Part shown: piece after piece, positions 2,040 to 7,253 of the stretch
How the letters are laid out: each line of letters begins with the position of its first letter
Numbering within the stretch: position 1 is the stretch's first letter
DNA from: Anaerolineales bacterium
GTDB lineage: Bacteria > Chloroflexota > Anaerolineae > Anaerolineales > UBA4823
NCBI GenBank assembly: GCA_020354045.1
Contig: CP070639.1
Span: 1-44,632, forward strand
Reading direction: 5' to 3'
DNA: 44,632 nt
Position numbers and translations under genes: made by a program
The notes under the pieces: generated by a model
The model's input: only the letters and a program-made list of their open reading frames with translations
Databases searched by the model: none
Told to the model about the DNA's origin: nothing

Positions 2040-3044
2040 ATGCGCATTAATCGAGACACCCTGCTGCGTATTGCTCAAGATACGGTCAAACAGAGAGTGC
2101 GTAAGGATCGCAGCCTGTTGTCGGCTTATTTATGTGGCTCGCTGCTTGGAGATGGCTACCTGTTGGGCGGCACAGCCGATATTGATTTGGTATTTGTGCA
2201 TTTTGACGCCCCACCTGAGGGACGAGAAATTGTCGGGCTGACCCAGGAGGTGCACCTGGATATTGCCCATTATGCCCAGAAGGAATTTCGCAATACGCGC
2301 AAATTGCGCGCTCACCCGTGGATGGGACCGACTATATTTGCCTGCCAGGTGCTGCATGACCCACAGCATTTTATGGATTTCACCCAGGCCAGCGTGCGCG
2401 GCCAGTTCAACCGGCCCGAATACATCCTGGAGCGCGCCCGCACACAGGCAGAACACGCTCGCCAAATCTGGATGGCTTTTTACCGGGAGATGCCCACCCA
2501 GCCCGGCCCGCAGGAATTGGAGCTGTACCTGCGGGCTGTAGGGCATGCTGCTAACGCCATCGCCAGCCTGAGCGGACCACCCATCGCCGAGCGGCGCCTG
2601 CTGCTGGAATTCCCACGCCGGGCAGAGGCAGTCGATCGGCCAGGCCTGCAGCCCGGCCTGTTAGGTTTGCTGGGCGCACCACGGGTGGATCACGCCGCGG
2701 TGCGCGCCTGGCTGGCAGACTGGCAGGCTTCCCTGGACAAGCTCCCTCAGGGTTATTCTCTTGCCCGTTTGCACCCCGCCCGGAGTGCCTACTACCGGCT
2801 GGCCTTTGAAGCGCTTCTGGATGGGGTTGAGCCAATGGCTGTTTTATGGCCGCTGTTGCGCACCTGGACGGATGCAGTTCGGCTGCAGCCCGTTGACGAA
2901 GATGCGCGTCAGGCCTGGAACCAGGCCTTACAGGCCCTAAACCTGGCAGGGGCTGGCTTTGCTGAGCGAGTGGAGGCGCTGGATGCCTATCTGGATCTGG
3001 TTGAAGACACGCTTGAGGGCTGGGCCGAACAGGCTGGGATATAA
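2040..3044 (+). CDS. Nucleotidyltransferase-domain protein
   Basis: A 334-residue protein whose N-terminus carries the minimal nucleotidyltransferase (pol beta-type) signature: CGSLLGDGYLLGG followed by TADIDLVFVH at residues ~32-56, giving the GS motif and the metal-binding D-x-D pair. The rest is helical with no domain I recognise. Such proteins transfer NMP groups to small molecules, RNA or proteins; the substrate is unknown here. An AGGGAAG ribosome binding site precedes the ATG. It follows the deoxynucleoside kinase by 50 bp, so both may belong to one transcript ending at the hairpin at 3065-3091. No HEPN partner is adjacent, so it is not an obvious MNT/HEPN toxin pair. Confidence 0.7.
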   Translation: MRINRDTLLRIAQDTVKQRVRKDRSLLSAYLCGSLLGDGYLLGGTADIDLVFVHFDAPPEGREIVGLTQEVHLDIAHYAQKEFRNTRKLRAHPWMGPTIFACQVLHDPQHFMDFTQASVRGQFNRPEYILERARTQAEHARQIWMAFYREMPTQPGPQELELYLRAVGHAANAIASLSGPPIAERRLLLEFPRRAEAVDRPGLQPGLLGLLGAPRVDHAAVRAWLADWQASLDKLPQGYSLARLHPARSAYYRLAFEALLDGVEPMAVLWPLLRTWTDAVRLQPVDEDARQAWNQALQALNLAGAGFAERVEALDAYLDLVEDTLEGWAEQAGI

Positions 3045-3064
3045 ACTAGATGAGTCTGCCGACG

Positions 3065-3091
3065 ACCAGCCGGCCTTTACGGCCGGTTGGT
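3065..3091 (+). terminator. Hairpin after the nucleotidyltransferase gene
   Basis: An 11-bp stem (3065-3075 with 3081-3091, one G-T pair) and a 5-nt loop lie 20 bp past the stop codon. There is no real U-tract (TGCTTAAAT follows), so it may act as a transcript 3' end stabiliser or a weak terminator. Confidence 0.5.
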
Positions 3092-3149
3092 GCTTAAATG
3101 ACTGTCGGATCGTTTGGGGTGAGCTTCAGGTGTAATGGCTATATCAGGG

Positions 3150-3165
3150 TGTTTCACGTGAAACC
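3150..3165. other. parS: parS-type centromere site (15/16)
   Basis: TGTTTCACGTGAAACC matches the bacterial chromosomal parS consensus TGTTTCACGTGAAACA at 15 of 16 positions. parS is bound by ParB, which loads SMC and helps move origins apart. It lies in non-coding DNA after the nucleotidyltransferase gene. Confidence 0.8.
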
Positions 3166-3236
3166 TTCTTGCTGGGGAAGCGCGCGGGGCAATTCTCGCG
3201 AAAGTTGCCGATAAGTGGGGGAGATTGGGTTTGGCA

Positions 3237-3252
3237 TGTTTCACGTGAAACA
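3237..3252. other. parS: parS-type centromere site (16/16)
   Basis: TGTTTCACGTGAAACA, a perfect match to the parS consensus and a perfect 16-bp palindrome. Its centre is 87 bp from that of the first site; both lie in the 233-bp gap between the convergent nucleotidyltransferase and GNAT genes. parA and parB are not in the window. Confidence 0.88.
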
Positions 3253-3277
3253 ATCAGCCTGCTGACCGTTTAGACCC

Positions 3278-3712
3278 TCAAGACAGGGTTTTGTGCATCA
3301 ACACGGCGCTGGAAGGACACAGGCTCTTGAATTCAGCCGTATCCTGGATAGAGGCAGGCGCTTGTTCTCGTGAGATGATATGGTACCCCTGTCTGGTAAA
3401 GAAATCCTCGGCTGTGGTGGTCAGTAGAAAAAGCTCCCGGAGGCCGTGTTGCCGGGCCAGTTCCTCGATCTGTCTGGTGAGCTGAAGCCCCCAGCTTTTC
3501 CCACGTGAATCCCCCCGAACTGCCAGGGAGCGCAACAATCCAACCTGGCCAAATTTCTCCAGGCCTACCGTGCCGATGAGAGCTCCTGCCTGGCGCAGCA
3601 CCAGAAACCCATCCATCAGCCCGCTGGACAGGTCTTCGCTAGGTAGTAGGCAAGATCTGAGCATATCCTTGATCTCGTCTTCGTCGCTGGGTTTAGCACG
3701 CGTGATCATCAT
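3278..3712 (-). CDS. GNAT acetyltransferase, ArsN2-like
   Basis: Predicted 144-residue N-acetyltransferase. It begins MMITRAKPSDEDEI, has the GNAT core strand and acetyl-CoA loop LLRSLAVRGDSRGKSWGLQL (about residues 60-80), then FLLTTTAEDFFTRQGY. The C-terminal FKSLCPSSAVLMHKTL closely resembles the end of ArsN2-type proteins linked to arsenic resistance, but no ars genes are nearby, so the substrate is open. An upstream ATG at 3829 is in frame, but it lies within the hairpin at 3799-3829 and the added residues are not GNAT-like; I prefer 3712 (or 3709). It sits downstream of the SPFH operon and is separated from it by that hairpin. Confidence 0.72.
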   Translation of the reverse strand: MMITRAKPSDEDEIKDMLRSCLLPSEDLSSGLMDGFLVLRQAGALIGTVGLEKFGQVGLLRSLAVRGDSRGKSWGLQLTRQIEELARQHGLRELFLLTTTAEDFFTRQGYHIISREQAPASIQDTAEFKSLCPSSAVLMHKTLS

Positions 3713-3798
3713 TTGGTTAGACCCATCTGCCCGGGTTGCAAACCGCTGCGCTGGTTTGTTCTTAAGCAGATTATAGGCGCGAATAAACTTCACGGGAA

Positions 3799-3829
3799 GT
3801 GGGGATTGCCCACTGCAGGCAATCCCCAC
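3799..3829. terminator. Perfect 12-bp stem hairpin after the SPFH operon
   Basis: GTGGGGATTGCC (3799-3810) and GGCAATCCCCAC (3818-3829) pair perfectly around a 7-nt loop. It lies 15 bp downstream of the 73-aa protein gene on the minus strand, where it can end the GntR-SPFH transcript. The T6 run is on the plus-strand side (3833-3838), so orientation is ambiguous. Confidence 0.6.
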
Positions 3830-4069: not shown

Positions 4070-5017
4070 TCACTCCTCCTGTGGTGGGATTGGAGAGCTT
4101 TGTCCCAGGGCTACCATGCCACTCAGGCCACCTAGGTTCATGGTGTCAACCGCTGAGCTGGGCACAATCACCATGGCGCCCTTCTCTTTGAGACCTTCAA
4201 AGAGCATGTTCATGGCGCGTAAGTGGAGTGCGGTCGGGTTGTCGATGTAGGCTTGGGAGGCTTCGGAGAAAGAGTGCGCGATTTGTTTTTCCGATTCACC
4301 CAGGATAACTCGCGCCTGTCGTTCGCGCTCGGCTTGAGCTTGGCGGCTCATGGTGTCCTCGAGCTCCTGAGGGATAACGACATCCCGAATCTCAACCGAT
4401 TGCACGGTCACGCCCCAGGGTGTGGTGCGCTCGTCGATGATTTTTTGCAGGTCGGCATCCATGCGGGCGCGTCCGACCAGGATATCTGCCAGGTCCATCT
4501 GGCCGATCACTTCTCGTAAGGCAGTTTGGGCGGCCCAGGCGATGGCAACGCGGTAGTCTTCTACCTCCAGGGCGGCTTTTTCGGCATCCCACACCATCCA
4601 GAACAGCACGGCATCCACGTCAACAGGGACAGTATCCTTGGTTAACGTTTTTTCAGCGCTGAAGGGCGTCACCATGACGCGGTGGTCAATCCAGTTGGCA
4701 ATTGTATCCACGATGGGGACAATCCAATACAGCCCAGGCCCAAACAGGCCGCGGTACTTTCCGAAGCGCAACACCACCGCTTTCTCCCACTGGGCTGCAA
4801 TTTTCAGTGCCAGCAGCACATAGGTGGCGATCAAGGCGAACACCACCACATAGCCTCCAATGAGCAAGTCGGGGATTGCAGCCTGGCTCATCAGGATGGC
4901 TCCCAGGGCACCGATGAGATAGAAGAAGGTAGCCACAGTAATTGCAACGCCGTTCAGGCGGTTGGTGGTCAGCTCTTTGGGCGATAATTTGGGGTCAAGT
5001 TTAATTCTCTTGTTCAT
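4070..5017 (-). CDS. SPFH/band 7 (slipin-type) membrane protein
   Basis: A 315-residue membrane protein. Two hydrophobic segments (about residues 24-43 and 51-72) precede the SPFH domain, which starts at QWEKAVVLRFGKYRG and runs through GPGLYWIVPIVDTI, TKDTVPVDVDAVLFW and WGVTVQSVEIRDVVIPQELEDTMSRQAQAERERQAR, diagnostic of stomatin/slipin proteins. These form oligomeric membrane scaffolds tied to lipid microdomains and quality control. A slipin is often paired with an NfeD-type protease, but no nfeD gene is adjacent; instead a GntR repressor lies 14 bp upstream and the 73-aa protein 3 bp downstream. The transcriptional repressor in the operon implies inducible expression. Confidence 0.9.
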   Translation of the reverse strand: MNKRIKLDPKLSPKELTTNRLNGVAITVATFFYLIGALGAILMSQAAIPDLLIGGYVVVFALIATYVLLALKIAAQWEKAVVLRFGKYRGLFGPGLYWIVPIVDTIANWIDHRVMVTPFSAEKTLTKDTVPVDVDAVLFWMVWDAEKAALEVEDYRVAIAWAAQTALREVIGQMDLADILVGRARMDADLQKIIDERTTPWGVTVQSVEIRDVVIPQELEDTMSRQAQAERERQARVILGESEKQIAHSFSEASQAYIDNPTALHLRAMNMLFEGLKEKGAMVIVPSSAVDTMNLGGLSGMVALGQSSPIPPQEE

Positions 5018-5713: not shown

Positions 5714-6601
5714 ATGGAACAACAGATTGCTACTTTTGCGGTTAAGAAAGGTCTGGCCCAGATGTTGAAGGGTGGTGTGATCATGGATGTGGTCACTCCT
5801 GACCACGCCAAAATCGCCGAGGACGCCGGCGCTGTGGCGGTCATGGCGCTTGAGAGGGTGCCAGCTGATATCCGTGCACATGGTGGAGTCGCCCGGATGA
5901 GTGACCCTGAGCTGATATTGCAGATCATGGACGCGGTTTCGATCCCGGTCATGGCCAAATGCCGCATTGGGCACTTTGTTGAAGCACAAATCCTGGAAGC
6001 CATTGGGGTTGACTATATCGATGAATCCGAAGTGCTGACCCCAGCAGATGAAGAACATCACATTAACAAGCATGTGTTCAAAGTGCCATTTGTATGCGGT
6101 TGCCGTAACCTGGGAGAGGCGATGCGGCGCATCGGTGAAGGTGCAGCCATGATCCGTACCAAGGGAGAGGCCGGAACGGGCGACGTGGTTGAGGCTGTCC
6201 GGCATGCCCGTTCTGTTTTGGGTGAAATCCGCCGGTTGCAGAATATGCCCGATGAAGAAGTCATGTCTTTCGCTAAAAGTATTGCTGCGCCGTACGAGTT
6301 GATATTAGAAACGCGCAGTTTGGGACGCCTGCCGGTGGTGAACTTCGCCGCTGGAGGGGTTGCTACACCTGCTGATGCGGCTTTAATGATGCAGCTTGGC
6401 GTGGATGGCGTCTTTGTAGGTTCTGGTATCTTCAAGTCTGGAGATCCAGCCAAGCGCGCCGCCGCGATTGTTAAAGCGGTGACGCACTACAAAGACCCTT
6501 ATATCCTGGCAGAAGTCAGCCGGAATCTGGGCGAGCCCATGGTTGGAAGGCAGGTTTCTAGCATACCCGAGGCAGAACTGATTGCAGATCGCGGATGGTA
6601 G
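5714..6601 (+). CDS. pdxS: Pyridoxal 5'-phosphate synthase subunit PdxS
   Basis: A 295-residue TIM-barrel synthase that builds PLP from ribose 5-phosphate, glyceraldehyde 3-phosphate and ammonia, in the DXP-independent B6 pathway. Very well conserved: [39 protein letters not shown] and [13 protein letters not shown]. Asp25, Lys82 (sugar Schiff base) and Lys150 (in [11 protein letters not shown]) fill the known catalytic positions. Length is normal. The ribosome binding site AGGAGGT is strong. pdxT follows 64 bp downstream, after a 6-bp hairpin at 6621-6639, and supplies ammonia to a PdxS12-PdxT12 complex. Confidence 0.98.
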
Positions 6602-6665
6602 TTTAAAGGTGGAACCCCGACCTCAAGAAAACGTTGAGGATAATCCGGGCCGGCTATGGTGATGG

Positions 6666-7253
6666 ATGAAGATAGGTGTACTAGCTCTACAGGGTGATTT
6701 TCATGAACATATCACCATGCTGAGCCGTATCGGCGTTGAAACGGCGGAGGTGCGTCTCCCAGAACACCTGGACGGGTTGGATGGGTTGGTCATCCCGGGA
6801 GGTGAATCGACTACGATTGGCAAGCTGGCGACAGATTTTGATCTGCTGGAACCGTTGCGCAAATTCGCTGCTGAAAAAGCCATCTGGGGTACCTGTGCAG
6901 GCGCAATCTTTCTTTCTAAGGATGTTCACCGCCAGCAGCCTCTGCTGCACTTGATGGATATTGTTGTTGAGCGCAATGCCTTTGGCAGGCAAATTGCCAG
7001 CTTTGAGATTGACCTGGAGATACCCGTGCTAAAGGAGGTTGCTCCTGGCGGGGGTCCATACCATGCCGTCTTTATCCGGGCTCCCTTGATTGCCTCGATC
7101 AGCGGTGGTGCGCACGCTCTGGCTAGCCTGGAAGATGGTCGCATTGTAGCTGCCCAGCAAGGGCGTATGTTGGCGACTGCTTTTCACCCCGAATTGACGG
7201 GTGACGATCGGTTTCATCGTTATTTTCTGCACCTTGCTGCAGGGCAGTCTTGA
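6666..7253 (+). CDS. pdxT: Pyridoxal 5'-phosphate synthase glutaminase subunit PdxT
   Basis: A 195-residue class I glutamine amidotransferase that hydrolyses glutamine and passes ammonia to PdxS. The family start MKIGVLALQGDFHEH is intact, the PGGESTTIGKL loop is at about residues 44-53, and the triad is complete: Cys77 in WGTCAG, His174 and Glu176 in FHPELTGDDRFH. The ribosome binding site is weak, so translation may be coupled to pdxS. Confidence 0.97.
   Translation: MKIGVLALQGDFHEHITMLSRIGVETAEVRLPEHLDGLDGLVIPGGESTTIGKLATDFDLLEPLRKFAAEKAIWGTCAGAIFLSKDVHRQQPLLHLMDIVVERNAFGRQIASFEIDLEIPVLKEVAPGGGPYHAVFIRAPLIASISGGAHALASLEDGRIVAAQQGRMLATAFHPELTGDDRFHRYFLHLAAGQS

Follow-up and report, generated by a model that had tools for sequence, protein, structure and literature searches.

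A probable chromosomal parS centromere in the probable origin domain of an uncultured Chloroflexota family

Two 16-bp palindromes in the genome of an Anaerolineales bacterium form, with a probability that we put at roughly 0.88, the chromosomal parS centromere of a ParABS system, located in the origin domain and served by a ParB that is encoded elsewhere. They lie in the stretch of DNA analysed here (the window), which comprises bases 1-44632 of a 3.59 Mb assembly described as a single contig. Site 1 (TGTTTCACGTGAAACC, 3150-3165) agrees with the parS consensus at 15 of 16 positions, its mismatch being the outermost base, and site 2 (TGTTTCACGTGAAACA, 3237-3252) is a perfect consensus palindrome (16/16). 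The two sites, which have no strand assignment, are spaced by 87 bp from start to start and sit in a likewise unstranded non-coding gap of 233 bp (3045-3277), bounded by a plus-strand ORF (2040-3044) and a minus-strand ORF (3278-3829) that converge on it. The original prediction had described just such a pair, one perfect and one 15/16 match 87 bp apart in a gap of this size with convergent flanking genes, and all of it was found.

These sites are rare and clustered. The window holds no further parS-like 16-mer with up to three mismatches besides the two (0.17 expected from shuffles), and nowhere else in the 3.59 Mb genome is there a match with one mismatch or none. Assuming equal base frequencies, 0.04 such sites would be expected per genome, and a second site would fall inside 233 bp by chance with a probability of about 3e-6, which bears out the earlier statement that such palindromes are not expected twice by chance. 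A whole-genome scan with up to two mismatches, proposed as a check, added a third match with two mismatches; this is no more than chance would give, as a control with the reversed pattern yields an equal number. An even spread of the motif around the chromosome, or the lack of a ParB gene, had been named as grounds for abandoning the prediction; the sites are confined to one place in the genome, and parB is present.

The genome encodes one chromosomal-type ParA/ParB, in a parAB operon at about 2798.8-2800.5 kb of the contig. A family search returned a single ParB-HTH gene, outside the window, and dnaA was found nowhere in the genome, in line with the remark that the window carries neither parB nor dnaA. 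The surroundings of the operon are, in a row, yidC, jag, a gene that we read from its sequence as presumably a pfkB-type kinase, parA and parB. ParB could be aligned to the structures of H. pylori ParB, T. thermophilus Spo0J and Noc, and it carries R (in GKNR) and G (in GHAR) at the specificity positions; the Noc-type residues Q and R at 173 and 201 are absent, the Caulobacter numbering being our own mapping through motif alignment. According to PMC7383237, R and G are invariant in ParB and give way to Q and R in Noc. Among the NCBIfam models, a Noc model gave the best E-value but scored below its own cut-off, and the general ParB model passed. The locus combines the features of a chromosomal parS: a 16-bp palindrome (TGTTTCACGTGAAACA) or near match, rare and clustered sites, and a cognate ParB with parS-type specificity residues.

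The genes around the sites belong to a conserved neighbourhood. It includes a single-strand binding protein (SSB, PF00436; 572..952, minus strand), a deoxynucleoside kinase (PF01712; 1306..1989, plus strand) and a nucleotidyltransferase-like protein of 334 aa (2040..3044, plus strand), which stands immediately before parS in most of the relatives read. On the far side of parS, an SPFH/Band 7 protein (4070..5017, minus strand) is conserved, as are, farther out on the same side, the plus-strand genes at 5714..7253, which by recognition of their sequences we take to be pdxS-pdxT. The convergent neighbour of the gap itself, a GNAT acetyltransferase (3278..3829, minus strand), was not seen adjoining parS in the relatives. 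In all, the window retains the conserved order ssb-dNK-NTase-parS-SPFH-GntR-pdxST, and a scan for DnaA boxes found no cluster within it. The 334-aa protein has no Pfam or NCBIfam match, and its putative assignment as a nucleotidyltransferase comes from a GS...DIDL motif; yet throughout the family it remains associated with parS and the kinase gene.

Across 61 genomes (the source genome and 60 relatives), parS-type sites were found in 49. Among the neighbourhoods read, the usual setting is a deoxynucleoside kinase, the nucleotidyltransferase-like gene, parS and then SPFH/GntR/pdxST, and this arrangement is conserved across many genera; the exceptions include relative G020, with parS in a different setting, and a few loci without these flanking genes. 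Some relatives have one site per locus and others two. Helical phasing of the paired sites was considered and rejected, with spacings in the relatives of 31-189 bp. The inner 14-mer of the relatives' sites is nearly invariant, partly as a result of how the sites were selected, the degenerate position is the outermost base, where site 1 has its mismatch, and the information outside the 16-mer is near zero. In the relatives, parB lies on other contigs or far from parS, and a few of them encode second, weaker ParB-type proteins. We found dnaA in 56 of the 61 genomes searched, usually on a contig other than that of parS; its distance from parS was about 18 kb in G051, 13 kb in G020 and 103 kb in G057. 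A literature search for parS in Chloroflexi, covering titles and abstracts, gave no paper on the subject. The suggestion that the gap marks a ParB loading region is strengthened by the parAB operon, by its parS-type specificity residues and by this conserved placement, and we regard the sites as a conserved ParB-loading centromere, putative as to ParB binding.

A candidate origin accompanies parS in a number of relatives. Scanning their parS loci for DnaA boxes revealed clusters near parS in several, mostly as two boxes 21 bp apart, and this double box (TTATCCACA twice, at most one mismatch) is present in 50 of the 61 genomes. In the four sequences read, TAG trinucleotides, a short spacer and tandem DnaA boxes occur about 280 bp from the double box; the order of DnaA boxes, spacer and DnaA-trios is as described for BUS (PMC8287927). 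The motif of DnaA-trio plus tandem DnaA boxes was detected in 39 of the 61 genomes, and the control gave a single hit. A CCCCCATATATGGGGG-like palindrome lies between both halves of the element (loci L085, L098, L200 and L221), and also accompanies the half present in the source genome.

Our table covers 36 genomes that have parS as well as the DnaA-trio motif; G047 was entered through its box cluster at about 505.3 kb because its motif has a different box spacing. The two features share a contig in 15 of the 36, in all 15 at 3.9-29 kb from each other, and lie on separate contigs in 21, where the parS contigs are short in most. G014 has parS at 57.9 kb of a 261-kb contig without an origin-like element, and parS and the element are therefore more than 57 kb apart in that genome. 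In those genomes that allow its side to be assigned, the element mostly lies towards the nucleotidyltransferase gene, seen from parS (reversed in G029), and most relatives carry it on a contig other than that of dnaA. One relative, G045, has nine DnaA boxes (at most one mismatch) within 437 bp (L114:2915-3352), about 7 kb from parS, and besides carries a trio/double-box element adjoining dnaA on contig C424.

The GC skew of G047 (4.40 Mb in one gap-free contig, with no N in the 1.22 Mb sampled) is weak in the sampled stretches, and the origin favoured by a two-arm fit is at around 0.2-0.8 Mb. This range contains parS (0.476 Mb) and the element (0.505 Mb), and dnaA (3.07 Mb) and parB (3.79 Mb) lie outside it. 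Permutation p values, which ignore autocorrelation, were 0.0002-0.0008 for an origin at parS or the element, with a rotation rank of 0.07-0.09; at dnaA and parB they were 0.998 and 0.53 on the same terms. Weak as it is, the skew is compatible with replication starting at parS and the origin-like element, and not at dnaA or parAB. In G057, whose skew is also weak, one of several sign changes falls between about 1346 and 1380 kb and is suggestive only, and the pooled relatives showed no skew flip within 10 kb of parS. The earlier suggestion that the window may be close to the replication origin gains only indirect support, from the 15 relatives that have the element 3.9-29 kb away and from the skew of G047; in G014 the two are farther apart.

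The source assembly limits what can be said of the source genome as a whole, for which we relied on pattern searches, family searches and a sample of stretches. Its completeness is 84%, the ends of the contig do not join each other, and of the 45 runs of N in the sampled stretches 44 are exactly 100 long, at a density that varies along the contig. We read the single contig as concatenated pieces linked by 100-N runs. Because of this, the distance between parS and parAB, other distances between pieces and the genome-wide skew are not interpretable, and a GC-skew flip at the contig ends was rejected as a signal. A sequence that is listed as one contig, with many such runs and unjoined ends, would mislead any inference based on order. 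The missing dnaA and an SMC represented by a terminal fragment only are likely due to the incompleteness of the assembly; a true biological absence of dnaA is unproven, given these gaps and the presence of dnaA in most of the genomes searched.

The source genome has only two perfect double boxes, at 772567 and 1460499 of the contig, and no match to the DnaA-trio motif. The double box at 1460499 is followed by a run of N about 220 bp past its boxes and adjoins an MFS gene, the homologues of which in G011 and G024 lie about 1.4 kb from the element. This double box is probably part of the organism's own origin, on an assembly piece other than that of the window; we infer that this origin lies near parS. 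The double box at 772567 (L220, about 772.5 kb) has a third, weaker box 21 bp away, and similar triple boxes occur in several relatives. These boxes lie immediately upstream of a gene whose match to TIGR00297 is below the cut-off, and homologous genes adjoin a double box in G057; they are possibly a DnaA-regulated promoter or a titration site.

By analogy with studied systems, ParB would bind each palindrome as a dimer, close as a CTP clamp (PMC8367383), and then slide onto adjacent DNA. Loaded ParB may recruit ParA, leading to origin segregation, and SMC (PMC7333895). The two adjacent sites would provide two loading points clear of the promoters of neighbouring genes. The locus would lie in the origin domain, with the origin-like element typically 4-29 kb away and, judging from the relatives, usually on the nucleotidyltransferase side, and the likely origin of this organism would be on a separate assembly piece that is unjoined to the window.

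Palindromes close together are also typical of operators, and transcription factor sites might resemble parS by coincidence. This is very improbable here, since the convergent genes leave no neighbour promoter in the gap, the sites persist although the far-side neighbour differs between relatives, the variable spacing keeps no helical phase, and the genome has no further copies. That the sites belong to an integrated plasmid or another mobile element with its own partition system is still less credible: the weaker second ParB-type proteins of a few relatives would be in its favour, but the neighbourhood is of housekeeping genes and conserved across genera, no parAB adjoins the sites, the only ParB-HTH match of the genome is of chromosomal type, and most of the family has the locus, which speaks against such an element.

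A more serious alternative is that the sites are genuine parS, separated from the origin by rearrangement in this species. The separation required in G014 shows that such distances occur, and in the source genome parS and the origin element show no physical link. We nevertheless consider this unlikely, because every relative with both features on one contig has them close together and the window keeps the gene order typical of those relatives. The reading that we prefer is therefore a chromosomal centromere in the origin domain.

More broadly, it is likely that parS and the origin lie within a few to tens of kb of each other across many genera of this large uncultured Chloroflexota family, with dnaA and parAB elsewhere. 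If this linkage without dnaA and parAB is true, selection would tie parS to the origin and not to the genes serving it, and the family would be a natural setting for distinguishing a link between parS and the origin from a link to dnaA and parAB. For a bacterial family that is represented here by draft assemblies, the work locates the centromere and, with it, the probable origin domain. Since dnaA is usually on a contig without an origin-like element, origin calling and genome orientation in this group would be better anchored on parS and the trio/double-box element.

Compared with known systems, the element of the relatives shares with BUS (PMC6669920, PMC8287927) its DnaA boxes, short spacer and TAG trinucleotides in order; it differs in lying mostly off the dnaA contig, and only a part of it was found in the source genome. 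Noc and its NBS sites belong to a related protein family, and the source ParB scores on the Noc model, below cut-off; however, the site here is parS and not NBS, and the two specificity positions of ParB hold R and G, in place of the Q and R of Noc. The closest match is chromosomal parS as known from ParABS systems (Livny et al. 2007, cited in the review PMC7333895), with the same 16-bp palindrome, few and clustered sites, one ParA/ParB in the genome and a position likewise near a probable origin, here in the relatives. The relatives' sites differ in being away from parAB and usually from dnaA, and they number only one or two in most of the relatives read. No feature falls outside known kinds, and the locus is a new example of chromosomal parS.
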